Source: Sycon ciliatum
Taxonomy: Eukaryota > Porifera > Calcarea > Leucosolenida > Sycettidae
Length of the DNA stretch: 64,000 nt
Assembly: GCF_964019385.1 (NCBI RefSeq)
Contig: NC_088645.1
Span: forward strand, 33,421,302 to 33,485,301
Direction: 5' to 3'
A program made the position numbers and the translations under genes. This document shows, piece after piece, positions 3,293 to 60,408 of this stretch; position 1 is the first letter of the stretch, and the number at the start of each line of letters is the position of its first letter. Under the pieces are notes generated by a model. That model was not told the origin of the DNA. It saw only the letters and a program-made list of their open reading frames with translations, and ran no database searches.

Positions 3293-3460
3293 ATGGCGAC
3301 GGAACCAGTCGAGAACGAACTGGATTGTGTTCTAGAGGATGTATGGATTGAAGTTCTGTTACCTTTGCTATCCATTCGCGACATCTTTCAACTCTGTGCT
3401 GTCAACAGGCGCATTCGAGATCTGTTGCTGAATGAGTGCACATTTAGACGTCTCTGTCAG
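3293..3460 (+). CDS. F-box protein gene A, exon 1 (F-box domain)
   Basis: The exon encodes 56 residues, beginning at an ATG in good Kozak context (A at -3, G at +4). After an acidic N-terminus, residues about 14-56 form an F-box: leucine-rich helix (EVLLPLLSIRDIFQLC), an arginine-rich turn (NRRIRDLLLNE) and the closing FRRLC. F-box proteins bind SKP1 and recruit targets to SCF ubiquitin ligases; that role here is inferred from the domain. The exon ends in phase 0 at CAG followed by the strong donor GTGAGT at 3461. It joins exon 2 at 6766 so that the F-box end (FRRLCQ) runs directly into QRYQLSPS, a typical F-box-to-linker junction. The predicted protein is 424 residues. Exon 1 of copy D is identical at protein level; B and C differ by a few residues. 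Reading past the donor adds 44 in-frame codons before a stop, giving a possible 100-residue F-box-only product. Confidence 0.82.
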
Positions 3461-4960
3461 GTGAGTAGTAATGTACAGGATTCGTGTGTTCGTGTGTTTG
3501 GAGAAATTGGGTTTCAAGTAGAGTCAGTATCCTCTAAAGCGTACCGATCACTTCGTGTATATAATTCGATGTATCACATGTGCATATGCATGTAGAAGAT
3601 AGGGTCCTCACTCGTTAGAAAATATCTCTGGCCGCGTATGTCTAGCAGTTATCCATCAGCACTCGACCGAAGGCCGGTGATTTTCTTAGATTGACTTAGA
3701 TTAAGTTGTGGCTGCTGGAGACAATAAAAGTATCGGCAAGTATGTACAGTTGTCCGTTTATTAGATATGGCGATCTTCCGCTGCATACGGAAATTTTACC
3801 TGCACTCAAACCCAGTCATTCCAGGGTACATAGGGGTTTCTGCCTACAGAGTCCGTTTTAGACTCCAGTTGGCGGCAGTCCCGGTGGGTACGACTCGTTG
3901 GTGGCAATAAAACATCATTCAGCTGAAAAGATTGAACAAATTAATACACAGGAAAATGCACAACAGAAGAGCAAGGACACTCAAGGCTTGGTTGCTGCTA
4001 CTTCAGGTTTCATGCTCACGCAATCATCAGGCACCGGCACTCTGGGTACATCCTCCGGTACAAAGCAAAATGTAAAATTCAGGTGGACTTGCAAGGGCAG
4101 TGCGAGAAACTGAACAAATACAATCAAATATTTTTCATGCTAGTCTTCATGGCTGTCAAACTTCGAGTTGTGTAATGTTACGCTCAGTGCCTGATACAAA
4201 ATATGTGTTGGTGCTACAAAATGAAAAGTACATCGGCTGTTAAATGTACTCAAAAGCAGCAGCAATTAGTAGACAGTAGCAACGAGCCACCATAATTAAA
4301 AAATATAAGTGAAAAGACAACCAAATTATTCACATGACATACAATTAGTCGCTTTGTCTGTCTCAAGTGGCGCTGCAGTCAGGATCCATTTGGCAAACGT
4401 GGGGCCATGCATCATATGGCCGTTAAATGTGATGATTGGTAAACAACAGAGAGAAACAGAAAACGTTTTTTAAATATCCATCATAGGAACCACGAGAGGG
4501 TTTGGAGGAAAATGGGACCAAAAGAACTCCAACAGACACCCGAGAAACATTACAAATAAAGGATCTTAGGCTGGATAGCTGCCGAGCCAGGAAAAACAGA
4601 GATGGTATGCTCTGATTCAATACTTTTACGACTACAGCCGATTACCGTTTATACCTTTCTGAGGAAGAGGTTGTTTCGACTTCTGCGATAGTTTAAATTA
4701 TGCGTCGCTACCTACACGGTAGCTGGCAGCCTGGCACGCATCCTGCAGACTTGACTTGCACTGTAGTGACTTACTATTGCCATTCAGAGCACACAAGACG
4801 TCCATCGAAGAGTCCACTCGGAAAATCTGCAAGAACGCACTACCGTCCTTGCTCAATACACAGTGTATGGGGGAGTTCACCCCTCATCAGCTGAGCTTGA
4901 GTAGGCTTATGAAATTTGTGCTTCGTCAGCACTGAATTATGTAATGCTTTCTGCACCGAA

Positions 4961-5617
4961 ACATCTCTAGCGATGCTAACTTCAGCAACACTCCGTGTCA
5001 AGGTTAAAAAACATCTCTTGCGATGCTAACTTCAGCAACACTCCGGTTAAAGGTTAACAAACATCTCTAGCAATGCTAACTTCAGCAACACTCCGTATCA
5101 AGGTTAACAAACATCTCTAGCGATGCTAACTTCAGCAACACTCCGTATCAAGGTTACCAAACATCTCTAGCGATGCTAACTTCAGCAACAAGCCGTATCA
5201 AGGTTAACCAACATCTCTAGCAATGCTAACTTCAGCAACACTCCGTATCAAGGTTAACAAACATCTCTAGCGATGCTAACTTCAGCAACACTCCGTATCA
5301 AGGTTTACAAATATCTCTAGCGGTGCTAACTTCAGCAACACTCCGTATCAAGGTTAACAAACATCTCTAGCGATGCTAACTTCAGCAACACTCCGTATCA
5401 AGGTTAACAAACATCTCTAGCGATGCTAACTTCAGCAACACTCCGTATCAAAGTTAACAAACATCGCTAGCGATCCCAACTTCAGCAACACTCCGTATCA
5501 AGGTTAACAATCATCTCTAGCAATGCTAACTTCAGCAACACTCCGTATCAAGGTTAACAAACATCTCTAGCGATGCTAACTTCAGCAACACTCCGTATCA
5601 AGGTTAACAAACATCTC
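4961..5617 (+). repeat. Intronic 50-bp minisatellite, copy A (about 13 units)
   Basis: Exact 50-bp periodicity. Each unit reads ACATCTCTAGCGATGCTAAC, then TTCAGCAACACTCCGTATCA, then AGGTTAACAA, with scattered single-base variants. The same unit recurs in introns B (about 7), C (one diverged unit) and D (about 11). Confidence 0.92.
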
Positions 5618-5760
5618 GTGAACTCCATACATCACTGTAAGTTAGTGTCGCTCAGTTTGCAGGAAAAATGCGAGTTTCTATGTGGGGCCGCGACACACAA
5701 TTCCCAATGATATTTGTACTGGTAAAATGTATGCTGTAGTAAACATAATGACCAAGAAAC

Positions 5761-6205
5761 TACTCAAATCTGTGGACAGCTGCTGTTTCGCTCTGTTAGA
5801 GCTCCTCAGCACAGCTTAGAGGACCGAAGCGCAGCTCTTCGCAATGAAATACGTTTCCGTGAAGCAAAGCATTATTATAAAGAGCTGCAAACCCCGCCGA
5901 GCGTGCTCGAAATGCTCCAAGAGCAGTGAGCGTTGCACAAAGCGAGTGGCAAGGGTTCGCGCTAAGGAAAGAGTTCTCAACCTAACGACATTGCTGACGC
6001 TAGGGAGCATAATACTCAAATCTGTGGACAGCAACTGTTTCGCTCTGTTAGAGCTCCTCAGCACAGTTCAGTTGACCGAAATGCAGCTCTTCACAATGAA
6101 ATACGTTTCCGTGAAGCAAAGCATTTTATAAAGAGCTGCAAACCCCGCCAAGAGTGCACGAAATGCTCAAAGAGCAGCGAGCGTTGCACAGGGCAAGCCA
6201 GAAAC
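5761..6205 (+). repeat. Roughly 250-bp imperfect direct duplication in intron A
   Basis: A block starting ACTCAAATCTGTGGACAGC and running through AAATACGTTTCCGTGAAGCA appears twice, about 250 bp apart. The same doublet is in intron B (interrupted by an insertion at 16231) and in intron D (58305-58740), so it predates amplification of the genes. Confidence 0.75.
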
Positions 6206-6765
6206 TACAAATTACACCATGATGTCCACTAACACTACCCGTTACTTGACACTCATCTCATGTGATAACATTGCATGACACTGACCCGTATAGTACTGAA
6301 GTTCTCCAACTCACTTGCTATCAGGTCCAGCACTTCGTGGATGCGCACTCCAACAGCCTACAAACTTGTGCTAAGTTGAAGTGATTACCTAGGAGGCGGA
6401 GGGGAGCGCAACCGAGATAATCACGAGCTGAAAGTCTCAGCTATGAAGGAGGTTGGCGGATGTACATGAGTGTCGATAACAATCCTGGCGAGACAATACA
6501 CCTTCAAACTAATATTCAAGGACGCATAGTACCATACCACAAAGGTTTTGTGGCTCTAAAGACTCAAACATTTAATCGGAGAGAAAGCTGAGCGAACATG
6601 AACGATGCAAAGTGGAACACCTCACAGTATTGTTCTTGGACTATGAGACTGATTTAGATGAACAATAAGCAACAAAAACAAGTACCATTCTCAAACGACG
6701 ATCGTTCCGACGCGTATACTTAAGCTTATTTTCCGTTGTTTGGTTGTTTTTGTCCATGCATGCAG

Positions 6766-7872
6766 CAACGTTATCAACTCAGTCCTTCTTTGAACACGTC
6801 CTACATCAGTGCTGCGAAAACCCTCTACATCTCCATTTCCGTAGTTGGTGTGGATACAAACCTTCTGTGGGATATCTGCTGGTTTTCTCCTAGAGATTTT
6901 TGTGGCAAAGGTCTTCTTTCAAGTACATCCCGATTCCAAATCCACCTACACCGATCTCAATTACTTGTCCAACTATCGAGCTTAGCATTAACGCTACATG
7001 AAACGTCGGGTCATGCCATTCATTGGAACAAGGCCGGGTTATTGCTCCATCACCAGGAGCTCACCGCAGATAACGTTACTGCCTGGCTACCGGCTGAAAT
7101 GAAGTCTGTTCTTGGTGGGACACTAGAAAATGTGACGAAATTGCTACACGAACGTTTCGACTTGCATGAACGGTTCCAGCAAGCGCTTTTAGATAGGCTG
7201 GAGCAAGATGTTCAAAAGCTGCTCCCTCACTTGCATTTGGCCTACCGCTGCAGCAGACTTATCGAGCTTGCACACTGCTTTCATAGCGCTGTAGCGAGAG
7301 ACCCAACAATGTACTCAACAATGGTACGGGATACGAGTTACGGAACTGTCTTTCCGCACCCATTGTGCACATGTACCTGGACCGATCACCACGACCTCCA
7401 TTGGAAAAGTGTCTATGAATTCAGGTTTACTCCAGAGCATGACATACATGTACTTGGGACCAGGAGCTGGATTAACGTGACCGGTCAACTTTTACAAGAT
7501 CATTCCGTTATGAAGCTCCTGATCACGGGAGATCTTCGAACCTCCCAGATGAACGATTACTTCGAAGCTGTCACTGAGTACAACAAAATCTGGAAGGATT
7601 TGCCGGTTTCCACTCGCCCCAGTCTTGCAGTTATACACAATGAGTTGGGACTGTTTCTACTGTCATCAACATCAGCTTCGGACTCTAGGAAGGAATATAC
7701 GAAAATGGAATTGGTGAACGCCATGGTAATGTTTGGCAAGAATCTTGCTGACGGAGCCACCAGCAAATGCGACCAGACTGACCAACATGTCACGGCCAAC
7801 GAGGGTAGCCCTCCAAGAAGCAGCAAGGGACGCCACGAGGAGGAAGAGAATGACTTGGATGAAGAAGACTAG
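6766..7872 (+). CDS. F-box protein gene A, exon 2 (C-terminal domain)
   Basis: The 368-residue open frame ends at TAG 7870-7872. I start it at the acceptor GCATGCAG/CAACG because the frame has no suitable upstream ATG and only the spliced product restores an F-box N-terminus. The domain is largely alpha-helical in appearance, with conserved blocks shared with copies B, C and D: LSPSLNTSYISAAK near the start, LLHERFDxHE (near residue 125), TSQMNDYFEAVTEYNKIWK (near residue 260) and DSRKEYTKMELVNAMVM (near residue 305). It ends in a very acidic tail (EEEENDLDEED). I see no WD40, LRR, Kelch or FBA motif, so the family is unassigned. In SCF receptors this region binds substrate; that is an inference. 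A poly(A) signal lies at 8484-8489. Confidence 0.8.
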   Translation, partial: QRYQLSPSLNTSYISAAKTLYISISVVGVDTNLLWDICWFSPRDFCGKGLLSSTSRFQIHLHRSQLLVQLSSLALTLHETSGHAIHWNKAGLLLHHQELTADNVTAWLPAEMKSVLGGTLENVTKLLHERFDLHERFQQALLDRLEQDVQKLLPHLHLAYRCSRLIELAHCFHSAVARDPTMYSTMVRDTSYGTVFPHPLCTCTWTDHHDLHWKSVYEFRFTPEHDIHVLGTRSWINVTGQLLQDHSVMKLLITGDLRTSQMNDYFEAVTEYNKIWKDLPVSTRPSLAVIHNELGLFLLSSTSASDSRKEYTKMELVNAMVMFGKNLADGATSKCDQTDQHVTANEGSPPRSSKGRHEEEENDLDEED

Positions 7873-8834
7873 GAGTCTACCACAGCTGGTGATGGTGCTG
7901 GCATGGTGATGATTGTGACGGTAATTACGACGACGACCAAAACCAGGATGTAGGATGAAAGAATTCGGCGATACACAAGCAGACATTAATTATTTTGTTG
8001 TTCAATATGAAGTGGTGTACAGTCTATGCGGACTCGTAGTTTAGTGTTCTACAGCAAGCGAGCAATTTGAGAAAGCTGCAACTCAAGATAAGTGTTCGAG
8101 GCCAGGGATACATTCACATAGGCAGTCCTGGCCCTGGCTTTTATGTATGTGTACAGATAGGAAATGTTACTGCACACACACACACAGTTCCAAGTACGTC
8201 ACACTTGCTGAAACGTTGTATAATTAGATGTTATTGACAAATAGTAGTATCCCTCGCTGTTGTCTTCAAGTAGAATTTGTTCTTTTGCGCTAATATTGGC
8301 CAGTGGCCACCTTGCGAATTTGATGATTGTGTTACCGACTACCACTGCATACTCTATAATTTTCACACGTACGCTATTATACAATAGTACACTGTGATAT
8401 GTTCTCTATGCGAGGGCCCAGGTTGTTTGTCTGGCTGTTGGCTACGGCTGATTCCCTATTCTTAGGTGCGGAGAATAACCCTCAATAAAGTCACATTCGG
8501 TGAACCCCAATTTCACTTCAATGTACCAGTGCACATAACAGCATGCTGTCTGTACTTGTTCAAGTGATCCCGGGAAATTAGTGTAGGGTGTGCATTATGT
8601 AGCTGCCTATGCCCACCACGATCAGCAGCTCCAGCAGCAACAACTAAATAGTGAGAATCGTATGATTTTTTAGCCCAGTCCTTGACATTTTGTGAACCCA
8701 TTATGACGGTCGCGGCCGCAGGGTCTTGCTCCAGGCACCGTTCCACCCAAGATATACTAATTTTATTGTTAGAATGGGCCAACACATTTTTGACTTCCGG
8801 ATGAACGCATTTATTTGTGCGATTGTTGTACAGT
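7873..8834 (+). other. 3' flank of F-box gene A
   Basis: Presumed 3' UTR and flank, collinear with 23736-25138 (B) and 60409-61400 (D). It contains a short CA repeat (about 8173-8187) and the poly(A) signal. No other gene seen. Confidence 0.6.
8484..8489 (+). terminator. Poly(A) signal of F-box gene A
   Basis: AATAAA about 610 bp after the stop, in CCCTCAATAAAGTC, conserved at the same place in B (24785-24790) and D (61051-61056). Confidence 0.55.
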
Positions 8835-10373
8835 GATGGTAGTATTAATTTTGATGAACAATATTATGATGTCGAGCAACTTACGCTAAGCTCAAAATAT
8901 TTATTTCGGTTTAAGGTAGATCGTGATTCAGCTCCGAGTTCAAATTTAAAACCAATGATTGCACTTAATAGAGACTTAATAGAGACTGAATTGTTTCGAG
9001 ACACTGGTGTAATGATAACGGACGAGGGATCACGATATCTTGGCGCAGCAATCGGAAGGGACAGCTTTCTTCAAAGCTATATCAAAACAAAGGTGGACGA
9101 ATGGATGGGGGAACTGAAGAAGCTAGCAGTATTTGCACAAACCCAGCCGCAGGCTGCGTATTCTGCGTATGTGACGGGCCTCAGGGGTAGATGGGCGTTC
9201 CTCTGTCGTACCATGAAGGTACCCGAACCCATGTTCCAACCGCTGGAGGACATTGTGAAGTCTGAACTGATTCCCGCCTTAACTTGCCGTGCACCCCCAG
9301 GCGACACCCTCCGACGGCTTATGGCTTTGCCGTGTCGTCTGGGTGGGCTCGGTTTGATTAACCCTGTGTCCCTATGCCAACAATACGACTCGTCGGTTCG
9401 GATGACCAACCCTTTGTCTCGGAGAATCTTGTCAGGGGATGGCTCCATCGGTGACTCGGTAGTGTTAATCAGATCGGCCAAGAGAGACGCCAAGGCATCT
9501 TCTCGACGTCATCAGAAACTGGAATTCGACGCGATATCGGGCAGTGCGTCGGAGTCGCTACGACATGTCATAGACGTCGCGAAGGAGAAAGGGTCGTCGA
9601 GCTGGCTGACGTGCCGTCCACTTAAGAAATATCATTTTAATTTAACAAAGGGAGAGTTTTGGGACGGACTCTGCCTCCGTTACGGATGGACACCGGCCAG
9701 GGTACCGTCACACTGCTCTTGCGGCCAAGAGGCAACTGTCGCGCATTCCCTGTCGTGCCCCTATGGAGGGTTTCCCTCCATTAGACACAATGGTATTCGG
9801 GACGTCACGGCCCGGCTGCTGGACGAGGTGTGCACCAGTGTGTCCATCGAGCCCTTGCTGCAACCGCTGACGGGGGAGCGTCTTCGCTACCGGACCGCAA
9901 ATATGGAAGACCGTGCCCGGTTGGATGTCGCTGCCAATGGTTTGTGGGGCAGTCGTTTTGAGCGTACACTTATTGATATACGGGTTTTTAATCCTCACTC
10001 ACGCTCAAATCGATCTGCACCACATACTATTGTGTATCAGCGACATGAAAAAGAAAAGAGAAGGCACTATGAGGAGCGGGTGAGGCAGGTTGAGCAAGCC
10101 TCCTTTGTTCCGGCGGTCATGTCAGCCAGTGGCGGAATGGGTCCAGCATCAACAGCACTGTACAAACGAATTGCTCATCTGTTGGCGGAGAAGAGGGGTG
10201 AGCATTACTCTCATGTTATGGCATTTGTTAGATGCAGGATTTCCTTCAGCCTTCTGAAATCCTGTATCATGTGCATTCGCGGTTGTAGGCGTTTAAATTT
10301 TGGTTTGAAATTTGCACCCTCCTGCGGAGCCCACGCTGCTTTGGCAGTGGCGGAGGCTCGCTTGCCGACGTAA
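8835..10373 (+). pseudogene. C-terminal half of a LINE polyprotein (RT thumb, CCHC, REL endonuclease)
   Basis: The open frame lacks a natural start; it opens at a GTG at 8817 in host sequence. It begins after the RT catalytic motifs, at a block ending GSRYLGAAIG (RT motif E/thumb type). A helical thumb region follows (VDEWMGELKKLAVFAQ). Next is a CCHC knuckle (CSCGQEATVAHSLSC, near residue 305) followed by RHNGIRD. Then comes a restriction-enzyme-like segment with ARLDVAANG (near residue 367) and LIDIRVFNP (near residue 387), and a conserved tail (SASGGMGP, RISFSLL). This order of knuckle then PD-(D/E)XK-like fold is that of site-selective R2/NeSL-type LINEs. Product would be a reverse transcriptase/endonuclease; this copy cannot be functional. 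A related fragment lies at 39026-39320 on the minus strand. Confidence 0.7.
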
Positions 10374-13926: not shown

Positions 13927-14094
13927 ATGGCGACGGAACCAGTCGAGAACGAACTGGATTGTGTTCTAGAGGATGTATGGATTGAAGTTCTGTTACCTTT
14001 GCTATCAATTCGCGACATCTTTCAACTCTGTGCTGTCAACAGGCGCATCCAAGAGCTGTTGCTGAATGAGCGCACATTTAGACGTCTCTGTCAG
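13927..14094 (+). CDS. F-box protein gene B, exon 1 (F-box domain)
   Basis: The exon has 56 codons from the same ATG context as copy A to CAG/GTGAGT at 14095. The F-box differs from copies A and D at three residues (RRIQELLLNERTF versus RRIRDLLLNECTF), all in the variable helix. The last residues FRRLCQ and phase 0 are preserved. The gene's intron is 8.5 kb because of a LINE and an inverted-repeat element; splicing across it is assumed from the intact donor and acceptor. Predicted full protein: 424 residues. Read-through past the donor stays open to 14229, again giving a 100-residue F-box-only frame. Role as SKP1-binding part of an SCF receptor is inferred from the domain. Confidence 0.8.
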
Positions 14095-15642: not shown

Positions 15643-15997
15643 TATCTAGCGATGCTAACTTCAGCAACACTACGTATCAAGGTTAACAAACATCTCTAGC
15701 GATGCTAACTTCAGCAACACTCCGTATCAAGGTTAACAAACATCGCTAGCGATGCTAACTTCAGCAACACTCCGTATCAAGGTTTAACAAACATCTTTGG
15801 CGATGCTAACTTCAGCAACACTCCGTATCAAGGTTAACAAACATCTCTAGCGATGCTAACTTCAGCAACACTCCGTATCAAGGTTAACAAACATCTCTAG
15901 CAATGCTACCTTCAGCAACACTCCGTATCATGGTTAACAAACATCTCTAGCGATGCTAACTTCAGCAACACTTCGTATCAAGGTTAAAAAACATCTC
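15643..15997 (+). repeat. Intronic 50-bp minisatellite, copy B (about 7 units)
   Basis: Same 50-bp unit as in intron A, with fewer copies. It is preceded by a three-fold GTAATGAATTAT microduplication at about 15580-15612. Confidence 0.9.
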
Positions 15998-16835: not shown

Positions 16836-17355
16836 AATACGTTTCCGTGAAGCAAAGCATTATTATAAAGAGCTGCAAACCCCGCCGAGAGTGCTCGAAA
16901 TGCTCCAAGAGCAGTGAGCGTTGCACAAGGCGAGTGGCAAGGGTTCGCGCTAAGGAAAGAGTTCTCAACCTAACGACATTGCTGACGCTAGGGAGCATAA
17001 TACTCAAATCTGTGGACAGCAACTGTTTCGCTTTGTTAGAGCTCCTCAGCAGAGTTCAGTGGACCGAAATGCAGCTCTTCACAATAAAATACGTTTCCGT
17101 GAAGCAAAGCATTTTATAAAGAGCTGAAAACCACCGCCAAGAGTGCTCGAAATGCTCAAAGAGCAGCGAGCGTTGCACAGGGCGAGCCAGAAACTACAAA
17201 TTACACCATGATGTCCACTAACACTACCCGTTACTTGACACTCATCTCATGACGTATGAAACGTTTTAGAGTAGGATGCATGTTTTTCAGCTCCCGTTTT
17301 CGTATCGTTTTTAGGTTACTTTTGGGGTCTCTGGCCCGGATTTTTTGTTGCAAGC

Positions 17356-18423
17356 ATGTCTACAAACAGGGATTCCACGACCATGGCCGCAGTAGAGAGC
17401 GATGAGCACGAACAGCCGTGCGATGTCCCAGATAATCGTTTCCCCACGTCGAACTGCTGCCGCGATTTCCACAACGCTCTGGCGGTGATAATGGATATGC
17501 TTGATGTCGAAAGAAGTGCTGCTGCAGACCGTGAGAAAAGGCTGATAAGCCATATCGACCAGCTATCTAGGACCGTTCAGGAACTATCCAGATCAAGCGC
17601 ACTGAACATTCCAAGTTCAGGAAGTTCCGCCATTACGGTTGGAGATTCTCAGGCTCAGAGCAAGTCGCAAAGAAAGAGGCGCCATGCTACTAACTGCCCA
17701 ACCGTTGAGTCCGAAACCAACCCGAATGCCGTAGTAGATCTACAACTGACTTCATCTGGTCCGGCCCAGCAGGATGCTGCGGCCAAGTGTCACATTCCAG
17801 TCGAGAGCGGACCTACCGTACCAGGACATGACCTCAGTGACCTGGATCATCACCAACGCGTGGGTGTCACGTCGAACGTTCAAACTGCTAGTAATTCGAA
17901 CTCCAAGACTAAGACCAACATTCAAACTTCAGCTAATGCAGCCAGTGCAGTCAGTGAGGCCAATTTGCCAGACGTCGATGACGACAGTGAAGATGCTGCC
18001 TGGCGTTTGGTGACAGCCAGGAAACCTGTCAAGAAAAGTGTTGTGTTTGTTGGCAATCTTCTGCGCGATGCCTCACTGGAGCAGCTAGCACGCTTCGTGG
18101 AGTGTCGCTCGTCGGAGTTGAAGACTCCCCCTATTAAAATTATCGACTGTAAAGTTTTTCAGAAGCAAAAGTCGTCGTCTGCGAGACTGGTAGTCCACGC
18201 ATCGTGCAGCAAGACGCTGTTGGATCGTCGCTTCTGGCCCAGACCACTCTATTCCAGACAGTGGAATTTCGACAAGTACTCTGCCTCTGATGTCAGTGAT
18301 GATACCACAGAAACCACAGCATGTGACGACACGCAAGCAAACTCCGCATCCCTTTCGGAAGTGGAAACAAATGTGCACGCGCCCTCAGTCAGCAATGGCT
18401 CTGAAATCAACCATGCCTGCTGA
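17356..18423 (+). CDS. LINE ORF1 protein (RNA-binding, RRM-like)
   Basis: A 355-residue protein with three regions. An N-terminal segment (residues about 40-80) has a heptad-like pattern (MDMLDVERSAAADREKRL then LSRTVQELSRSS) suggesting a coiled coil. A long low-complexity Ser/Asn/Thr-rich linker follows (about 90-215). A C-terminal globular domain (about 220-305) opens with KKSVVFVGNLL, resembling the RNP2 strand of an RRM, and ends near SRQWNFDKYS. ORF1 proteins of CR1/Jockey-type LINEs coat the element's RNA and form the RNP; here this is inferred from position and architecture. I see no CCHC knuckle. The stop TGA (18421-18423) overlaps the ORF2 ATG by one base (TGATG), an arrangement used in some LINEs for termination-reinitiation. 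Confidence 0.85.
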   Translation: MSTNRDSTTMAAVESDEHEQPCDVPDNRFPTSNCCRDFHNALAVIMDMLDVERSAAADREKRLISHIDQLSRTVQELSRSSALNIPSSGSSAITVGDSQAQSKSQRKRRHATNCPTVESETNPNAVVDLQLTSSGPAQQDAAAKCHIPVESGPTVPGHDLSDLDHHQRVGVTSNVQTASNSNSKTKTNIQTSANAASAVSEANLPDVDDDSEDAAWRLVTARKPVKKSVVFVGNLLRDASLEQLARFVECRSSELKTPPIKIIDCKVFQKQKSSSARLVVHASCSKTLLDRRFWPRPLYSRQWNFDKYSASDVSDDTTETTACDDTQANSASLSEVETNVHAPSVSNGSEINHAC

Positions 18424-24452: not shown

Positions 24453-24767
24453 AGTAAAAGTAAAAAAGTAAATTATCGTATCCGTTCCCGAAGGGAACTC
24501 ACGACGGCCGCTAACACCCGATAAACCCTAGCGGCAGATGCAGCGCCTAACGGTGGGGGTGAGTGGGTAAGTCTCACAACCACTGGCACAAGTGCCGAAA
24601 GCGACCCCATTAGCTGCATCCATGTACCCCTTGTGCCTGGCCACAAGTTCCCAGTTGACTGTGGGTAGCAGCACGGCTGGAAAAACCGCTCCCAGGCAGG
24701 ACTTGAACCAGGTACCTCTCGTATCTCAATCATGGTCTTTGACCAACCCACTGTGCCTGCCTGGTCG
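24453..24767 (-). mobile_element. tRNA-derived SINE, copy 1
   Basis: Inserted in gene B's 3' flank; copies A and D are empty here. On the minus strand it starts ACCAGGCAGGCACAGTGG, which contains a Pol III A-box-like GGCACAGTGG. A perfect B box GGTTCAAGTCC follows about 50 bp on, then a 240-bp body and a tail of TTTACTT-like repeats. The target duplication TGCGGAGAATA(A) is present at 24441-24452 and 24768-24779. Practically identical to copy 2 at 49051-49357, so recently active. It contains no gene; long frames through it are incidental. Confidence 0.88.
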
Positions 24768-30429: not shown

Positions 30430-30597
30430 ATGGCGACGGAACCAGTCGAGAACGAACTGGATTGTGTTCTAGAGGATGTGTGGATTGAAGTTCTGTTACC
30501 TTTGCTATCCATTCGCGACATCTTTCAGCTCTGTGCAGTAAACGGGCGCATCCGAGATCTGTTGCTGAAGGAGTGCATATTTAGACGTCTCTGTCAG
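30430..30597 (+). CDS. F-box protein gene C, exon 1 (F-box domain)
   Basis: The exon has 56 codons, ATG to CAG/GTGAGT at 30598. The F-box is intact, with GRIRDLLLKECIF where A and D have RRIRDLLLNECTF. Upstream sequence, including the TATA block, matches the other copies. The partner exon 2 lies 10.8 kb downstream (41361-42416) behind an intron full of transposons. The donor and the far acceptor are both intact, but continuity across this intron is inferred. Predicted protein: 407 residues. Read-through past the donor stays open to 30762 (110-residue frame), with a different tail from the other copies, so the intron start has diverged. Confidence 0.75.
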
Positions 30598-34051: not shown

Positions 34052-34054
34052 CAA

Positions 34055-37204: not shown

Positions 37205-37208
37205 TTAA

Positions 37209-41360: not shown

Positions 41361-42416
41361 CAACGCTATCAGCTAAGTCCTTCTTTGAACACGTCCTACA
41401 TCAGTGCTGCGAAAAATATCTACATCTCCATTTGCATAGTTAGCATGGATTCAAACCTGATTTGGGATAACTACAGGCTTGCTACCAGTGATTTATCCGA
41501 ACAAGACCTTCTATGGTATGCGTCCAAAAGGAAAAAACTCCGGTGGAGATCTCGATGGCCTGCCCAAGAAAGGTTCTTAGCTCGGACTCTACTTGATACG
41601 TCGGATTCCAGTCAGAGATTACTTGTTCAAGGTCAGAAGCTGACCTTAGAAGAAGTTAGCGCCCAATGGACATATGTTGTTGGTGGGACACTAGAAAAAG
41701 TGGGCGAAATCCTACATGAACGTTTCGATTCGCATGAAGGGTACCAGCAAGCTTTTTTAGAAAAGCTGGAGCAAGATGTTCCAACGCTGGTGACTTACTT
41801 GCCCCTGGCGTACCGCTCATGGAGACTTAGAGAGCTTGCACACTGCCTTCACAGCATTGTAGCCAGAGACCCAACCATGACCTCACGGATTCAACAGATC
41901 ATATGCAACTTACCTAGCCGTCCAGTTCAAACGTCCACGTGGGCCCATCAGCAGGCCCTGTACGACCTTCATTGGAAAGATGCGGATGAACTCACGTCTG
42001 CTGCACCAGCTGACGGTATACTATGGACCAGGATCTGTATTGATATCATTGCTCGACTTGCAAGAGATCGTTCATTTATTAGGCTCCTGATCACCGGAAA
42101 GCTTCGGACATCGCAGATGGACGATTATTTCAAGGCTGTCACTGAGTACAAACAAATCTGGAAGTATTTGCCGGAGTCCACTCGCCCTAGTCTTGCAGCT
42201 ATACACCAGGAATTGGGAACGTTTCTCCTGTCATCAACATCAGCTTCGGACTCTAGGAAGGAATTTACGAAAATGGAATTGGTGAACGCCATGGTAATGA
42301 TTGGCAAGAAACTGGTTGACGAAACAACTCACAAATCCGGTACGGCCCTGACCGTCCAATCTCCCGCGGCTTATTTCATGGATCACTCTGCCATCCTACG
42401 TGTATGTATGCTATAA
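41361..42416 (+). CDS. F-box protein gene C, exon 2 (diverged C-terminal domain)
   Basis: A 351-residue frame from GCATGCAG/CAACG to TAA 42414-42416. The first 25 residues and the last conserved blocks (TSQMDDYFKAVTEYKQIWK, PESTRPSL, DSRKEFTKMELVNAMVM) match copies A, B and D closely. The middle differs much more (for example ASKRKKLRWRSRWPAQERF has no counterpart), overall perhaps 55-60% identity. The acidic tail is replaced by a short hydrophobic end (HSAILRVCML), so the C-terminus has been rewritten. With exon 1 the protein would be 407 residues. The open frame over 1 kb despite divergence argues the gene is functional. It is the outlier of the cluster and may recognise a different target; that is speculative. 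Confidence 0.75.
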   Translation, partial: QRYQLSPSLNTSYISAAKNIYISICIVSMDSNLIWDNYRLATSDLSEQDLLWYASKRKKLRWRSRWPAQERFLARTLLDTSDSSQRLLVQGQKLTLEEVSAQWTYVVGGTLEKVGEILHERFDSHEGYQQAFLEKLEQDVPTLVTYLPLAYRSWRLRELAHCLHSIVARDPTMTSRIQQIICNLPSRPVQTSTWAHQQALYDLHWKDADELTSAAPADGILWTRICIDIIARLARDRSFIRLLITGKLRTSQMDDYFKAVTEYKQIWKYLPESTRPSLAAIHQELGTFLLSSTSASDSRKEFTKMELVNAMVMIGKKLVDETTHKSGTALTVQSPAAYFMDHSAILRVCML

Positions 42417-48067: not shown

Positions 48068-49694
48068 TATAGACCACCCTTTTCAGGTGATCTACGGATA
48101 TCTCCCCTAGTTTGAGGAGATTATGGCTCATAATCCCTTCAAACGAGGGGATATCATATCCACAGGAAATCCTGTGGATCCCCTCGGACGGTGGGTCGGA
48201 CCCAGTCCTTCTACCAGCATAACCAAGAGAGCTAGCTCCCTTGGCTGCTGTTTGAATATGCAAGAATGGGCCTTCCAGATAAGGTCTAAAAAGGGGAAGT
48301 GGCTATAGTTGTCAAAAGAAAAGCATATTGGTGAAACAAAAACAAGGGAAGTGGCAATCTTTCGATCAGCACCAAACAAGAGCATATTATTTTACAACAT
48401 ACTACATGAACCGGATGTGCCGAGCACCGGTAACCATAGAGACAGACCACACCCGCATATAGATGCTGGTGATACTGGTCATAAATAGATCGGATAAGGA
48501 AAATAATCCGATAGCCTATGAAGAGTAAAAGAAATTGAACCAATCACAACAAAAATGCTCGTCCAGCACACGAGTTGTCATAGAAACATTGCACGAAATG
48601 ACAAAGACCCATAGTAATGAGCATCGCCGTTCAATGCAAAATTGGTTTCTAGTACAGTAGTTGGAAATTTCCTTCTTTCACAGACCTGAAAGACAAACCG
48701 TTGCAGCAGTTACTGTAGCCTACTACTAACTCAATGTCATTGGGTCTACATGTGGCATTCACGCTTTACTGGTCTTGTCAAATTTGTTCCACGCGATCAC
48801 AAACAATCCATCTCAGGGCCGTAGCAGGCGGTCCGGCAGGACCAATATTCGGCCAAAAAAAAAAGAAAAAAAAAGAAGCTCAAACATGTAAGCAGCTCAG
48901 GATGTCCACCCATGATATGTGCAATAACTTGAATAAGTAGAGGTAGTGAGGTATAATAGAGGTACTGTAGTAGTAGATGGTAATAGCACTAACTAAGCAA
49001 GAGTATAATTATTTCGAAACTGAAGTTTGAACTCTAGTATACATGTATGTACCAGGCAGGCACAGTGGGTTGGTCAAAGACCATGATTGAGATACGAGAG
49101 GTACCTGGTTCAAGTCCTGCCTGGGAGCGGTTTTTCCAGCCGTGCTGCTACCCACAGTCAACTGGGAACTTGTGGCCAGGCACAAGGGGTACATGGATGC
49201 AGCTAATGGGGTCGCTTTCGGCACTTGTGCCAGTGGTTGTGAGACTTACCCACTCACCCCCACCGTTAGGCGCTGCATCTGCCGCTAGGGTTTATCGGGT
49301 GTTAGCGGCCGTCGTGAGTTCCCTTCGGGAACGGATACGATAATTTACTTTATTTGATACATGTATGTCATGTACATGTTGTTGCGAATACCATGTACAT
49401 AAATCTATGGGGTGTTGTCCTGTACTTTATGACCTCCCGCCATTCCTCCATTGCAATGTCCTTTCTCCTCCTCCAAGGAACCAAAGGTCCATTTTTGGTT
49501 CTTTTATCACATGCGTTTAGACTATGCCTTCCGCACTCGCCTCAGTCAAACCAACAAGTGGATCTACATGTAAACCCGGAGAGGCGACGAGCGAATGACT
49601 CTGTCAGAACTAATACTTACTTCAGTGTTCTGTTCGCACTGCACATGTACTAGTTCATGCTGCGCTGCTCATCACCCGAAAAGTGTGGTCTATA
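48068..49694. other. Inserted block upstream of gene D with short inverted ends
   Basis: Relative to the A upstream region (continuous across about 190-200), this block is extra. It begins TATAGACCAC and ends GTGGTCTATA. It contains a dyad-rich start (48080-48200: GGATATCTCCCCT..AGGGGATATC and CCACAGGAAATCCTGTGG), an A-rich run near 48850 and the SINE at 49051. No gene. Confidence 0.4.
49051..49357 (+). mobile_element. tRNA-derived SINE, copy 2
   Basis: Target duplication TACATGTATGT at 49040-49050 and 49358-49368. A-box-like GGCACAGTGG near the start, perfect B box GGTTCAAGTCC at about 49108-49118, body, then TTTACTTTATTTGA tail. The body appears identical to copy 1 over about 290 bp. Transcription would be by RNA polymerase III; mobilisation by a partner LINE, identity unknown. 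Confidence 0.88.
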
Positions 49695-52598: not shown

Positions 52599-52610
52599 TA
52601 AGGGGTCAAG

Positions 52611-55469
52611 TAGTAGTAGGTTTTTCATTTTGACGCGACGAGACCATACGACGCTTGCAGATCACAGCACGAACAGTTCACCAGCCACACTCCACGAAAG
52701 CAAGTAGTAGTACTCCTGACAAGTCTTGTTTCGTTCCATAGAGATAATAACGGGGAACTCATCAGAGGAGAAGCAGTTGTTGAATGAAGGGGTTTGGCTG
52801 AATAATGCTATTTTATAGACAATATATTGGCGCACTGAGGTGTAAACACTCAACTAACTCACATATGTGACATATCAACACAAAAGGAATAGTGCAGAAT
52901 GGAGGTGTTCTGAACCCTACCAGACACAACTATCACAAGTGCTAAATCATTCACAATGAGAAGGAGAGGTACTACTACTGTATTTGACGGACCTATTGAA
53001 GATGGCACAAAGAATTATGACTTCTCCTGGACCAGGAAATCTGCCATTGACCAAAGGAAGGATTTGATCTGCTGCTCGGATTTTAGCGTTAGACGCCAAC
53101 CTTGCAGTCAAGATCAGGATGGATACGTCGCCTCAGCAGCCCACGTTTCTATGTCACACCCAGCAGCCTTCCTTTCACTATACCGCTGGCTGAATTTCAA
53201 TTATCGAGGTTTGTGAAGTATTTGTCTTGTGCCGCTAGCAATCTTCAGATGTGACGTTAGACGTTCGTGATGATTTGTTGGCTTTCACTTGGCGTCTACT
53301 TTTCACCTATCTTTGTCACTACCTCAATACCATTTGTGACGTGTAAACTAGCGCAACCTATTCCTGTGTACCTCTCCTTCTCATTGTGAATGATTTAGCA
53401 CTTGTGATAGTTGTGTCTGGTAGGGTTCAGAACACCTCCATTCTGCACTATTCCTTTTGTGTTGATATGTCACATATGTGAGTTAGTTGAGTGTTTACAC
53501 CTCAGTGCGCCAATATCTTGTCTATAAAATAGCATTATTCAGCTAAACCCCTTCATTCAACAACTGCTTCTCCTCTGATGAGTTCCCCGTTATTATCTCT
53601 ATGGAACGAAACAAGACATGTCAGGAGTACTACTACTTGCTTTCGTGGAGTGTGGCTGGTGAACTGTTCGTGCTGTGATCTGCAAGCGCCGTATGGTCTC
53701 GTCGGGTCAAAATGAAAAACCTACTACATTGTAGTAAGTAATTAGTTTGAAAGGCACTTCAGTCACGTGACAGGACCTGTCAAAATTTGCTAAGGTGAGA
53801 GTGCGTACGCGTACTTACGTGGCACCAGTCAAGTGCATGCGCAAAACTGCACAGGTACGCGCTAGCGCTATGCTTCGTTGTACGGGCTGATAGTTGGGCG
53901 CATCGTGTTGCTCTGACGTTCAGCTTTCGGTAGATCCCGCATACGTCATAGTGCGTACATTTTTGCGAGTTGTAGATCACGTACACTTCCAGCAAAGTGT
54001 TTTTTCACAAAGAACTGTTGTTTGCTCGCGTTTGAAACGTTGCTTATCGTCATCAGCGTCGTCTTTCCATTCGGAAACAGTAGAGTTCTTGTTTACCAGG
54101 GTTTGCGCATCGCTGCGCAAGGAGACATTATGGACGTAGGCACTGAGAAGTATGCGCTTTAGGCGGAGGAGAACGACGATGCGTCGTCCTACCTGGGCAA
54201 ATTCTCAAAGCGTACTGAGAGCCAAATTTTGACACGGTTGCGCTGGAAGGCCTATGTTTACGAACAATCAAAAGGCACAGTGGCTGCCGGAGAAACCCTC
54301 CGATGAGGGGATGCTTTGATATACGCAGCCAGGCACGCTTCACCGAAATTTCAAAGCTCACCAGCAGGCAATTCATGACTGCTGCATGGAGCAGTTGAAA
54401 GAGAGGGAGGCAGATATCACACCATGGAAAGAAGCTACCAACAGAGGTCCTGAAGAACTTCTTGCCAACTTGGAATCACTTGAAGTGGCATGACTGTGGG
54501 CACGAATGTCCTGTGCAGTAATTCGCGCGCGCGCGTACTTACCCTCCACTTTGCTGTGTAGGGCGTACAACGTGGAAGTTCTCTGTTGTTTTTGTGCCAG
54601 AAGAATGTCTTTATAGCTCTTACGCTTTAGTACCCGCAGGAGCCTGCCAGTATGTCGTTATCAGTTCATTTCACAGCAAACTGAAGCTGTTACTATGGGT
54701 TCCTATGGCGTTGCTATGGGTTGCTATGGAGTTGCTATAGTGATTGCGGTCACAATTGCCGTATTCTTGACTATTCTGAACTTTGATCTGTATTGTTTCG
54801 GTCCATACATGGTTGTTGGTGTAAGTGAGTGATGTGTGCTTGAAAAAAAACACTCTGATGTTTTGTGACTATATCCACTGAGAATACTTCGGAGATGCTG
54901 TTGGTGCCACAAATTGTATTGATTTCGCCTTATGCAACTGCCTATCTTCAACCCTTCATATCTGAGTAGTATCACTGTGTATTTCAATAAAATTTTCTGT
55001 GTGACTTTGTGATACCCACCACCATCGATTACCGATGATAAACCTGGAAAAAACGCGATTTCAAAAAATGGGGTGAAGTTCTCATTGTGAATGATTTAGC
55101 ACTTGTGATAGTTGTGTCTGGTACTGGTTCAGAACACCTCCATTCTGCACTATTCCTTTTGTGTTGATATGTCACATATGTGAGTTAGTTGAGTGTTTAC
55201 ACCTCAGTGCGCCAATATCTTGTCTATAAAATAGCATTATTCAGCTAAACCCCTTCATTCAACAACTGCTTCTCCTCTGATGAGTTCCCCGTTATTATCT
55301 CTATGGAACGAAACAAGACATGTCAGGAGTACTACTACTTGCTTTCGTGGAGCGTGGCTGGTGAACTGTTCGTGCTGTGATCTGCAAGCGCCGTATGGTC
55401 TCGTCGGGTCAAAATGAAAAACCTACTACTACTGTATTTTACGGACCCATTGAAGATGGCACAAAGAAT
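52611..55469. mobile_element. Unclassified 2.86-kb insertion made of three ~350-bp arms
   Basis: Flanked by the 12-bp direct repeat TAAGGGGTCAAG (52599-52610, 55470-55481); the A locus has only one copy (about 2824-2835). Arm 1 (52616-52965) is inverted relative to arm 2 (53384-53731) and arm 3 (55081-55430). All are over 95% alike and end in AAAAACCTACTA. A second short direct repeat (ACTACTACTGTATTT..GGACC..ATTGAAGATGGCACAAAG) lies inside arm 1 and after arm 3. No transposase found. Confidence 0.7.
54131..54493 (+). pseudogene. Decayed coding-like segment inside the three-arm insertion
   Basis: From an ATG at 54131 the plus strand reads MDVGTEKYAL, stop, AEENDDASSYLGKFSKRTES and so on, with further in-frame stops at 54299 and beyond and no intact frame. 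The composition (acidic, then SKRTESQILTRLRWKAYVYE) looks coding rather than random, but I recognise no family. Could be remains of the element's own gene or captured host sequence. Confidence 0.3.
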
Positions 55470-55814
55470 TAAGGGGTCAAGATCGACTGATCTTGACCGC
55501 TTATTCTGGCCTCTCATTGGCCGTCACCTGGCAACAAGCACGTGCCATGTATGCACAAGCGATAGTAGCGTGTGGTGCTACGACCAAGTCGCTTACACAG
55601 CGAGCCCACTTATCCTACGGATCAGCGGCGCTGTCAGTATACATGTACCTTAACACAATACCAACTGACGTACATGGACTTCAAAGTAGAACTGAACATG
55701 AAGCCATGTCGACAACACTATGATTGTACATACATCAAAGTAACCAGCATAGTACTTTCACGTCCCACAGCTACAACGCTTCCATCAAGTAGTCTCCTAC
55801 CAATACTACTGAGG

Positions 55815-55820
55815 TATAAG
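55815..55820 (+). promoter_or_regulatory. TATA box of F-box gene D
   Basis: TATAAG in the same block as in A (TATAAGTCAGAGCTCTCAAA), about 100 bp before the ATG. Confidence 0.6.
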
Positions 55821-55918
55821 TCAGAGCTCTCAAAATTTACAAACAGCCAGTTGACTCGCCAAATCTGCGGCCGGGTTCAGTTTTCTTCCTCCGAGACATT
55901 GTTTATCTGAAAGAGAAC

Positions 55919-56086
55919 ATGGCGACGGAACCAGTCGAGAACGAACTGGATTGTGTTCTAGAGGATGTATGGATTGAAGTTCTGTTACCTTTGCTATCCA
56001 TTCGCGACATCTTTCAACTCTGTGCTGTCAACAGGCGCATCCGAGATCTGTTGCTGAATGAGTGCACATTTAGACGTCTCTGTCAG
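55919..56086 (+). CDS. F-box protein gene D, exon 1 (F-box domain)
   Basis: The exon has 56 codons, encoding the same peptide as copy A (one silent base difference noted, CATCCGAGA for CATTCGAGA). It ends at CAG/GTGAGT (56087) in phase 0. The upstream 450 bp, including the TATA block, is also nearly the same as A. D is therefore the closest relative of A, although A and D are the outermost copies of the array in this window. This fits duplication of a multi-gene block or gene conversion. Read-through past the donor gives a 100-residue frame, as in A and B. SKP1 binding inferred from the F-box. Confidence 0.82.
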
Positions 56087-59000
56087 GTGAGTAGTAATGT
56101 ACAGGATTCGTGTGTTCGTGTGTTTGGAGAAATTTGGTTTCAAGTAGAGTCAGTATCCTCTAAAGCATACCGATCACTTCGTGTATATAATTCGATGTAT
56201 CACATGCGCTTGTACATGTAGAAGATAGGGTCCTCACTCGTTAGAAAACATCTCTGGCCGCGTATGTCTAGCAGCTATCCATCAGCACTCGACCGAAGGC
56301 CGGTAATTTTCTTAGATTGACTTAGATTAAGTTGTGGCTGCTGGAGACAATAAAAGTATCGGCAAGTATGTACAGTTGTCCGTTTATTAGATATGGCGAT
56401 CTTCCGCTGCATACGGAAATTGTACCTGAACTCAAACCCAGTCATTCCAGGGTACATAGGGGTTTCTTTATACAGAGTCCGTTTTAGACTCCAGTTGGCG
56501 GCAGTCCCGGTGGGAACGACTCGTTGGTGGCAATAAAACATCATTCGGCTGAAAAGATTGAACAAATAAATACACAGGAAAATGCACAACAGAAGAGCAA
56601 GGACACTCAAGGCTTGGTTGCTGCTACTTCAAGTTTCATGCTCACGCAATCATCAGGCACCGGCACTCTGGGTACATCCTCCGGTACAAAGCAAAATGTA
56701 AAATTCAGGTGGACTTGCAAGGGCAGTGCGAGCAACTGAACAAATACAATCAAATATTTTTCATGCTAGTCTTCATGGCTGTCAAACTTCGAGTTTTGTA
56801 ATGTTACGCTCAGTGCCTGATACAAATTAAGTGTTGGTGCTACAAGATGAAAAGTACATTGGCTGTTTCATGTACGCAAAAGCAGCAGCAAATTGAATAC
56901 AGTAGCAACGAGCCACCCTAATTAAAATTATAAGTGAAAAGACAACCAAATTATTCACATGACATACAATTAGTCCCTTTGTCAGTCTCAAGTGGCGCAG
57001 CAGTTCGGATCCAGTTGGCCAACGTGGGGCCATGCATCATATGGATGTTAAATGTGATGATTGGTAAACAACAGAGAGAAACAGAAAACATTTTTTAAAT
57101 ATCGATCATAGGAACCACGAGAGGGTTTGGAGGAAAATAGGAACGAAATAACTCCAACACACACCCGAGAAACCTTACAAATCAAGGATCTTAGGCTGGA
57201 TAGCTGCCGAGCCAGGAAGAACAGAGATGGTATGCTCTGATTCTAGTATAACATTGTATTATTCAATACTTTTGCGACTACAGCCGATTACCATTTATAC
57301 CTTTCGGAGGAAGAGGTTGTTTCGACTTCTGCGATAGTTTAAATTATGCGTGGCTACCTACACGGTAGCTGGCACGCATCCTGCAGACTTGACTTGCACT
57401 AAACTGACTTACTATTGCCATCCAGAGCACACAAGACGTCCAGCAAACAGTCCACTCAGAGAACTTAAAAGAATGCACTACCGTACTTGCTCAATACACA
57501 GTGTATGGGGGAGTTCACACCTCATCAGCTGAGCTTGAGTAGGCTTATGGAATTTGTGCTTCGTCAGCACTGAATAATGTAATGCTTTCTGCACCGAACC
57601 ATCTCTAGCAATGCTAACTTCAGCATCACTCCGTATCAAGGTTAACAAACCTCTCTAGCGATGCTAACTTCAGCAACACTCCGTATCAAGGTTAACAAAC
57701 ATCTCTAGCAATGCTAACTTCAGCAACACTCCGTATCAAGGTTAACAAACATCTCTAGCGATGCGAACTTCAGCAACACGCCGTATCAAGGTTAACCAAC
57801 ATCTCTAGCAATGCAAACTTCAGCAACACTCCGTATCAAGGTTAACAAACATCTCTAGCGATGCTAACTTCAGCAACACTCCGTATCAAGGTTAACAAAC
57901 ATCTCTAGCGGTGTTTGCTTCAGCAACACTCCGTATCAAGGTTAACAAACATCTCTCGCGATGCTAACTTCAGCAACACTCCGTATCAAGGTTAACAAAC
58001 ATCGCTAGCGATGCTAACTTTAGCAACACTCCGTATCAAGGTTAACAATCATCTCTAGCAATGCTAACTTCAGCAACACTCCGTATCATGGTTAACAAAC
58101 ATCTCTAGCGATGCTAACTTCAGCAACACTCCGTATCAAGGTTAACAAACCTCTCGTGAACTCCATATATCACGGTAAGTTAGTGTCGCTCAGTTTGCAG
58201 GAAAAATGCGAGTTTCTATGTAGGGCCGCGACACACAATTCCCAATGATATTTGTACTGGTAAAAATGTATGCTGTAATAAACATAATGACCAAGAAACT
58301 GCTCAAATCTGTGGACAGCAGCTGTTTCGCTCTGCTAGAGCTCCTCAGCACAGATTAGAGGACCGAAGCGCAGCTCTTCGCAATGAAATACGTTTCCGTG
58401 AAGCAAAGCATTATTATAAAGAGCTGCAAACCCCGCCGAGAATGCTCGAAATGCTCCAAGAGCAGTGAGCGTTGCACAAGGCGAGTGGCAAGGGTTCGCG
58501 CTAAGGAGAGAGTTCTCAACCTAACGACATTGCTGAGGCTGGGGAGCATAATACTCAAATCTGTGGACAGCAACTGTTTCGCTCTGTTAGAGCTCCTCAG
58601 CACAGTTCAGTGGACCGAAATGCAGCTCTTCACAATAAAATACGTTTCCGTGAAGCAACGCATTTTATAAAGAGCTGAAAACCCCGCCAAGAGTGCTCAA
58701 AATGCTCCAAGAGCAGTGAGCGTTGCACAGGGCGAGCCAGAAACTACAAATTACACCATGATGTCCACTAACACTACCCGTTACTTGACACCCATCTCAT
58801 GTGATAACATTGCATGACACTGACCCGTATAGTACTGACGTTCTCCAAATAACTTGCTATCAGGTCCAGTACTTCGTGGATGCGTACTCCAACAGCCTAC
58901 AAACTTGTGCTAAGTTGTAGTGATTACATAGGAGGCGGAGGTGAGAGAAACCGCGATGGTCACGAGCTGAAAGTCTCAGCTATGAAGGAGGTTGGCGGAT

Positions 59001-59301
59001 GTACATGATTGTCGATAACAATCCTTGCGAGACAATACACCTTCAAACTAATATTCAAGGACGCATAGTACCATACCACAAAGGGTTTGTGGCTCTGAAG
59101 ATTCAAAGATTTAATCGGAGAGAAAGCTAAGCGAACATGAACGATGCAAAGTGGAACACCTCACAGTATTGTTCTTGGACTATGAGAATTTAGATGAACA
59201 ATAAGCAACAAAAACAAGCACCATTCTCAAACGACGATCGTTCCGACGCGCATACTTAAGCTTATTTTCCGTTGTTTGGTTGTTTTTGTCCATGCATGCA
59301 G
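56087..59301 (+). other. Intron of F-box gene D
   Basis: A 3.2-kb GT-AG intron collinear with intron A over its full length, without insertions. It provides the empty site for the LINE (CCATCTCATGTGATAAC near 58790-58806) and for the 605-bp element (GAAATACGTTTCC near 58385). Confidence 0.75.
57598..58155 (+). repeat. Intronic 50-bp minisatellite, copy D (about 11 units)
   Basis: Same 50-bp unit and phase as in intron A. One unit has GTGTTTGCTT in place of GATGCTAACT, breaking the branch-site-like motif. Confidence 0.9.
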
Positions 59302-60408
59302 CAACGTTATCAACTCAGTCCTTCTTTGAACTCGTCCTACATCAGTGCTGCGAAAACCCTCTACATCTCCATTTCCGTAGTTGCTGTGGATACAAACCTT
59401 CTTTGGGATATCTGCTGGTTTTCTCCTAGAGATTTTTGTGGCGAAGGTCTCCTTTCAAGTACATCCCGATTCCATATCCACCTACACCGATCTCAATTGC
59501 TTGTCCAACTATCGAGCTTAGCATTAACGCTACATGAAACGTCGGGTCATGCCATTCATTGGAACAAGGCTGGGTTATTGCTCCATCGCCAGGAGCTCAC
59601 CGCAGATAACGTTACTGCCTGGCTACCGGCTGAAATGAAGTCTGTTTCTGGTGGGACACTAGAAAATGTCACGAAATTGCTACACGAACGTTTCGACTCG
59701 CATGAACGGTACCAGCAAGCGCTTTTAGATAGGCTGGAGCAAGATGTTCAAAAGCTGCTCCCTCACTTGTATTTGGTCTACCGCTGCAGCAGATTTATGG
59801 AGCTTGCACACTGCTTTCATAGCGCTGTAGCCAGAGACCCAACAATGTACTCAACAATGGTACGGGATACGAGTTACGGAACTTTCTTTCCGCACCCATT
59901 GTGCACATGTACCTGGACCCATCACCACGACCTCCATTGGAAAAGTGTCTATGAATTCAGGTTTACTCCAGAGCATGACATACATGTACTTGGGACCAGG
60001 AGCTGGATTATCGTGACCGCTCAACTTTTACAAGATCATTCAGTTATGAAGCTCCTGATCACGGGAGATCTTCGATCCTCCCAGATGAACGATTACTTCG
60101 AAGCTGTCACTGAGTACAACAAAATCTGGAAGGATTTGCCGGTTTCCACTCGCCCCAGTCTTGCAGTTATACACAATGAGTTGGGACTGTTTCTACTGTC
60201 ATCAACATCCGCTTTGGACTCTAGGAAGGAATATACGAAAATGGAATTGGTGAACGCCATGGTAATGTTTGGCAAGAATCTTGCTGACGGAGCCACCAGC
60301 AAATGCGACCAGACTGACCAACATGTCACGGCCAACGAGGGTAGCCCTCCAAGAAGCAGCAAGGGACGCCACGAGGAGGAAGAGAATGACTTGGATGAAG
60401 AAGACTAG
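59302..60408 (+). CDS. F-box protein gene D, exon 2 (C-terminal domain)
   Basis: A 368-residue frame from GCATGCAG/CAACG to TAG 60406-60408, with the same acidic tail as A and B. About 17 amino-acid differences from A are scattered along the protein (for example SVSGG for SVLGG, LYLVY for LHLAY, FMEL for LIEL). Shares PVSTRPSL, HNELG and SKCDQTDQ with A against B. With exon 1 the protein is 424 residues. Function of the domain is unknown; target recognition inferred. Confidence 0.8.
   Translation, partial: QRYQLSPSLNSSYISAAKTLYISISVVAVDTNLLWDICWFSPRDFCGEGLLSSTSRFHIHLHRSQLLVQLSSLALTLHETSGHAIHWNKAGLLLHRQELTADNVTAWLPAEMKSVSGGTLENVTKLLHERFDSHERYQQALLDRLEQDVQKLLPHLYLVYRCSRFMELAHCFHSAVARDPTMYSTMVRDTSYGTFFPHPLCTCTWTHHHDLHWKSVYEFRFTPEHDIHVLGTRSWIIVTAQLLQDHSVMKLLITGDLRSSQMNDYFEAVTEYNKIWKDLPVSTRPSLAVIHNELGLFLLSSTSALDSRKEYTKMELVNAMVMFGKNLADGATSKCDQTDQHVTANEGSPPRSSKGRHEEEENDLDEED

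Follow-up and report, generated by a model that had tools for sequence, protein, structure and literature searches.

A probable family of SCF substrate receptors with an F-box-like first exon and a divergent second exon in the calcareous sponge Sycon ciliatum

In Caenorhabditis, the F-box families A1 (F-box plus FTH) and B (F-box plus FBA2) have expanded by species-specific tandem duplication. Excerpts of two studies (PMC8665587, PMC12062965) describe this expansion, purifying selection on the F-box, signals of positive selection in the C-terminal domain, and a proposed role of the F-box-FTH and F-box-FBA2 families in immune recognition. SKP1 is expanded in C. elegans as well, according to an excerpt of PMC1257465, and plants combine a large number of F-box genes with amplified SKP1-like (ASK) genes (excerpts of PMC3511428 and PMC1257465). 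Here we analysed a 64,000-nucleotide stretch of the genome of Sycon ciliatum, called the window (C3:33421302-33485301, where C3 is contig NC_088645.1), which carries four tandem copies of a two-exon gene with an F-box-like first exon. F-box proteins dock on SKP1 and thereby on CUL1. We consider it probable that the four copies belong to a family of substrate receptors of the SKP1-CUL1-F-box (SCF) ubiquitin ligase, grown in tandem, with a uniform F-box exon, a divergent receptor exon and fast-changing targets. Among the literature matches listed, as far as their titles and the openings of their abstracts go, this family is not described.

Gene anatomy and family size

All four copies lie on the forward strand. 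Copy 1 consists of an F-box-like exon 1 at 3293-3460 (56 codons) and an exon 2 at 6766-7872 (368 codons and a stop), which encodes a helical domain of no recognised family. The corresponding exons are at 13927-14094 (56 codons) and 22629-23735 (368 codons and a stop) in copy 2, at 30430-30597 (56 codons) and 41361-42416 (351 codons and a stop, a diverged subtype) in copy 3, and at 55919-56086 (56 codons) and 59302-60408 (368 codons and a stop) in copy 4. The introns measure 3305, 8534, 10763 and 3215 bases, respectively. Exon 1 of copy 1 begins with ATGGCGACGGAACC and ends in CAG, followed by the donor GTGAGT at 3461. In all four copies CAG is followed by the donor GTGAGTAGTAAT, the acceptor ends in CATGCATGCAG directly before CAACG, and the predicted junction is in phase 0. 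Exon 2 starts with CAACG(T/C)TATCA behind an acceptor ending in ATGCATGCAG, and its frame is open through to the stop.

The exon-1 proteins of the four copies are 95-100% identical to that of copy 1. The exon-2 proteins of copies 2 and 4 share 93-95% identity with copy 1 and that of copy 3 shares 53%; at the DNA level, copy 3 matches copy 1 at 95% in exon 1 and at only 72% in exon 2. The frame of copy 3 is intact, and its indels relative to the other copies come in multiples of three as far as the C-terminal tail. The flanks are also common, with 2824-8834 aligning to 55470-61402 at 93% identity. The shared 5' flank of copy 1 (2824-3292, forward strand), a possible promoter or 5' untranslated region, matches copy 4 from 2824 (93%), copy 2 from 3051 (91%) and copy 3 from 3048 (83%), and the alignments continue through exon 1. 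A preliminary description of this DNA, made from the letters alone, had claimed four same-strand copies with a common promoter block, a 56-codon F-box exon, phase-0 splice sites, and a second exon of 350-368 residues with a C-terminal domain of no known family. The coordinates and alignments confirmed this two-exon structure, and the F-box-like nature of exon 1 and the lack of a known family for exon 2 were upheld by the searches given below.

The genome that we searched comprises 538 Mb in 313 contigs, and the match counts are lower bounds. At least 117 matches were found with the exon-2 protein of copy 1, at least 112 with an exon-2 protein from contig C1, and at least 150 with the exon-1 protein. 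Merging gave 125 exon-2 places (85 on C10, 18 on C1, 18 on C3, 3 on C11 and 1 on C5), 109 of which are 850 bases or longer. The family comprises about a hundred or more genes in the S. ciliatum genome. The preliminary description, which had proposed counting copies outside the window, spoke of local F-box expansions; here the expansion goes further, as exon-2 places occur on at least five contigs.

Exon-1 and exon-2 places form 109 pairs in the correct order and strand on four contigs, the two exons being a median of 2782 bases apart; 17 of the paired genes are on the window's own contig at 33.16-33.56 Mb. An exon 2 on the same strand lies within 20 kb downstream of 114 of the 150 exon-1 places, compared to 21 of 150 in a control with strands flipped. 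Splice sites were read in the better matches, with the fragmentary loci L019 and L025-L029 left out. An AG acceptor was present at 44 of 44 exon-2 copies, and a GT[A/G]AG donor one codon past the last conserved Cys at 30 of 30 exon-1 copies (GTGAGT in 26, GTAAGT in 2, GTGAGA in 2). The excess over the strand control and the conserved splice sites are good sequence-level evidence that the two exons would form one gene.

By manual count, 22 of the 117 exon-2 matches contain a stop, and part of the family is therefore probably non-functional or truncated. No recognised exon-2 partner was found for 41 of the 150 exon-1 places. At four of these that were read, no exon-2-like frame was seen nearby (frames of at least 110 codons), and two of the four (L093 and L095) carry retrotransposon frames. 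At L093 (C11:23079500-23084500) the exon-1 relative stands beside what resembles by eye the polyprotein of a long terminal repeat retrotransposon, and this element perhaps separates exon 1 from its second exon.

The two exons and SKP1 amplification

The exon-1 alignment contained 26 fetched and four window copies, which are the best-scoring 30 of the 150 places. Twenty-two of these 30 matched the F-box profile PF12937 at E up to 1, the best at E 7.1e-5. The structure model of exon 1 gave a weak match, which carries no E-value, to FBXO31 as solved together with Skp1 (PDB 5vzt); a second fold match, 9xrl_A, may also be an F-box chain. A second clustered F-box family, apart from the one studied, was seen as 10 F-box-like matches at C13:6319364-6477160 and 3 at C8:3246586-3267507, above the Pfam cut-off and in open frames of 308-503 codons.

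For exon 2, 43 fetched loci were tried, the fragmentary L025, L026, L028 and L029 being left out, and 41 had a frame of at least 300 codons (L019 has an early stop, and at L027 another frame was taken). Thirty-five of the 41 were aligned with the four window copies; L011, L021, L022, L031, L032 and L035 were omitted as near-duplicates or repeats. The other members are 29-98% identical to copy 1, and Y3, Y13, W205, S247, Y265 and P285 are invariant in all 39. Among 16-residue blocks up to residue 336, the least variable are 1-16 and 257-272 and the most variable 33-48, 49-64 and 209-224. The structure model is helical with short strands only (predicted local distance difference test, pLDDT, 73; predicted template modelling score, pTM, 0.71), and its low-confidence parts (42-50, 193-195 and 209-225) overlap the variable stretches. 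No convincing Pfam family was found for the 39 members in a Pfam copy whose newest models date from 2025. WD40, LRR, Kelch, FTH and FBA2 were absent among the 15 families matched at E up to 1 with sequence profiles only, and FBA was absent among the Pfam matches of the same members. The fold search recognised no known fold, the stretch beyond about residue 162 being barely covered by the second-look search. These profile and structure searches, which the preliminary description had proposed, agree with its statement that the C-terminal domain lacks WD40, LRR, Kelch and FBA motifs.

SKP1 is amplified in the same genome. PF01466 matched 18 places, one on C14, one on C4 and 16 on C10 at 23.09-23.59 Mb; because four of the 16 start 3 positions past the end of another, we counted 12 genes. 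At C10:23093272-23093531 and three similar places the second Skp1-domain match lies in a different frame, a pattern that would suit a tandem duplication of the final exon in these four copies. PF03931, the N-terminal half, matched 22 places (1 on C14, 2 on C4 and 19 in the C10 stretch), and by manual reading 12 of the 19 are strong, each adjoining one PF01466 gene on the same strand. A spliced SKP1 copy (L090) aligned with SKP1 of the Protein Data Bank (PDB) over residues 5-165 of 165 (E 1.4e-61), and the C14 exon differed, by manual reading, at 5 of 50 positions from the PDB chain, which we take to be human. Members of the F-box family are also on C10, the nearest found at 23.88 Mb, about 0.3 Mb from the SKP1 cluster.

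Evolutionary rates and rival explanations

The rate estimates cover 15 of the 17 paired genes on C3, omitting 33388996 (stop) and 33410879 (partial), and seven subfamily sets; columns with more than 20% gaps were cut from the C3 set and columns with any gap from the subfamily sets. In the C3 set, the ratio of nonsynonymous to synonymous rates (omega) was 0.47 for exon 1 and 0.75 for exon 2. Within exon 2 it was 0.18 for residues 1-24, 1.40 for residues 25-72 and 0.56-0.79 for the remainder, with wide bootstrap ranges (0.01-1.00 for residues 1-24). Model M2a was preferred over M1a in exon 2 (twice the log-likelihood (lnL) difference 8.40, p about 0.015), where some 9% of sites were placed at omega 2.3; in exon 1, twice the lnL difference was 0.68. 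These site models were run with our own code, whose one-omega lnL of -5553.5 is the same as that of IQ-TREE. Fourteen exon-2 sites had P(omega>1) above 0.5 and none above 0.9. Across the subfamily sets, omega of residues 25-75 exceeded 1 in four (A 1.23, C3b 2.11, E 1.22, F 1.22) and was below 1 in three (B 0.84, C 0.94, D 0.38). The first 24 residues gave 0.05-0.31 in sets A, B, C, C3b and D and 0.72 in E; in F, with three sequences, the value ran to 50 and is meaningless. Positive selection on exon 2 is suggested by these data, not proven.

The trees of exon 1 and exon 2 clash, differing by 42 and 896 lnL units, and synonymous divergence (dS, NG86) of copy 3 from copies 1, 2 and 4 amounted to 0.11-0.14 for exon 1 and to 0.45-0.46 for exon 2. 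Because of the clash and the low exon-1 dS, exon 1 seems to have been exchanged or homogenised among genes with differing exon 2.

The computations show how the genes are built, how large the family is, an F-box-like sequence with its predicted fold, the amplification of SKP1 and the unevenness of the rates; splicing, SKP1 binding, ubiquitylation and the nature of the targets are inferred. In an SCF ubiquitin ligase, each gene product would act as the substrate receptor. Exon 1 would supply a divergent F-box docking on SKP1, and exon 2 a helical receptor domain of roughly 340 residues that would choose which protein is ubiquitylated and degraded. Tandem duplication would enlarge the family, and exchange between paralogues would keep exon 1 uniform and let exon 2 diverge, most of all around residues 33-64 and 193-224, two stretches where the structure model is poor. 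With a docking exon that stays constant and, across an intron, a receptor exon that diverges, a single interface could serve many receptors. Probable targets are fast-changing proteins of pathogens, of mobile elements or of self/non-self recognition. Such targets had been raised in the preliminary description; the omega of 0.75 versus 0.47 and the M2a signal fit this idea, but relaxed constraint could explain much.

Several observations weigh against a receptor family of this kind. Exon 1 of copy 1 scored 18.2 bits against PF12937, below the Pfam cut-off of 24.3, the profile and fold scores of exon 1 are weak, and a genome search with PF12937 gave 31 places, none within the clusters of the studied family. 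The gap between paired exons reaches 18 kb. Such data would suit two separate genes, or an exon 1 that is no F-box, and the SCF reading would then fail. We regard this as improbable, since 109 pairs, spread over four contigs, have the same order and strand, with the excess over flipped strands, phase-0 splice sites occur in all copies read, the exon-1 model matches the FBXO31 chain, and SKP1 is amplified too. Amplified adaptors with amplified receptors are the pattern expected of an SCF-based system, though this is a correlation and not proof. Less probable still is that exon 2 encodes a protein captured from a transposon or virus and that the array is a product of mobile elements. Transposons abound in the window, transposon domains have been taken up by F-box genes elsewhere (excerpt of PMC12062965), and single members have weak matches to rve_2 (E 0.14), to TTRAP (E 0.011) and to a protein of a podovirus (E 0.032). 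However, these matches are isolated, each in 1 of 39 members, and beyond isolated weak matches of this kind the Pfam search of the 39 gave no transposase, reverse transcriptase, integrase or capsid domain. One exon-2 motif scanned through viral contigs gave 37 pattern matches with no relative among them, and the exon-2 copies occur in clusters, paired with exon 1. On these grounds the exon-2 product does not appear to be encoded by a transposon; a match to a transposon-encoded protein would, by the preliminary description, have refuted its reading.

The rates themselves admit genomic drift, in which true F-box genes, lying in a region rich in repeats, multiply through unequal crossing-over, and their copy number and sequence drift because constraint is weak, without any arms race. 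Relaxed constraint could produce much of the exon-2 rate pattern. Taken over its full length, exon 2 has an omega of 0.63-1.02 across the seven sets, and for residues 25-75 omega is significantly above 1 in none of them. Recombination, as indicated by the topology clash, weakens the site test. The stops in 22 of 117 matches and the fragmentary state of other copies also fit drift, and excerpts of PMC3030570 and PMC7829749 treat plant F-box families in these terms. Drift would not predict the preference for M2a in exon 2 and not in exon 1, the constraint on exon-2 residues 1-24 in five sets, or the amplification of SKP1. We consider drift a serious contender and lean somewhat against it.

Surrounding repeats and comparison with known F-box systems

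A 50-bp minisatellite recurs in the intron of copy 1 (4959-5617, 13 units), in copy 2 (15645-15997) and in copy 4 (57600-58155). The intron of copy 2 contains a long interspersed nuclear element (LINE)-type retrotransposon on the forward strand (17275-21218), whose open reading frame at 18405-21218 encodes endonuclease and reverse transcriptase (the latter at E 2.3e-36), and the intron of copy 3 contains a Mutator-like DNA transposon on the reverse strand (34053-37206; transposase E 2.2e-67); both are foreign to the gene. The Mutator-like element has identical terminal inverted repeats of 236 bp, and no exact target-site duplication was seen. A tandem repeat of a block of about 1050 bases occupies 31952-34061 (99.5% identity), with a third copy at 39641-40650 (89%). 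A 304-base element at 24462-24765 recurs in opposite orientation at 49051-49354 (99.7% identity) and is perhaps a recently moved non-autonomous transposon. Directly upstream of copy 4, a repeat of about 355 bases occurs three times in both orientations (52609-52972, 53368-53727 and 55079-55433; 98-99% identity). A 522-codon open frame at 8805-10373 resembles by eye the C-terminal portion of a polymerase from a retroelement, and no Pfam match is listed for it at E up to 10.

The closest parallel to the Sycon genes is with the Caenorhabditis F-box families, which they would resemble in their working; by sequence they appear to belong to neither A1 nor B. As in these families, an N-terminal F-box, or F-box-like sequence in Sycon, is followed by a divergent C-terminal domain (about 300 residues in Caenorhabditis), and many genes stand in tandem. 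SKP1 has multiplied in Sycon as in C. elegans, and the purifying selection on the F-box and the positive-selection signals in the C-terminal domain of the nematode families have their parallel in the lower omega of exon 1 and the M2a signal of exon 2. Unlike in Caenorhabditis, FTH and FBA2 are not among the Pfam matches of the 39 exon-2 members, one long phase-0 intron parts the F-box exon from the receptor exon, and the amplified SKP1 genes are clustered on C10, the contig with most paired F-box genes. FBXO31, the fold match of exon 1, differs from the Sycon genes in its C-terminal domain and is a single gene in human. With the plant FBX superfamily the Sycon family shares many F-box genes and amplified SKP1. 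Kelch, LRR and FBA domains are typical of plant F-box proteins, but they are not among the Pfam matches of Sycon exon 2.

We put forward tentatively, and with some doubt, that Sycon represents a non-nematode lineage with its own SCF-based intracellular recognition, comprising about 100 or more receptors, an exchanged F-box exon, a hitherto undescribed helical domain with two hypervariable stretches and a private, co-amplified SKP1 set. Exon 2 would add a substrate-receptor domain without a convincing Pfam match. Co-amplification of F-box genes and SKP1 has already been described in plants and C. elegans, and a further co-amplified case with a different receptor domain would provide a test of repeated SCF recruitment for recognising fast-changing proteins.
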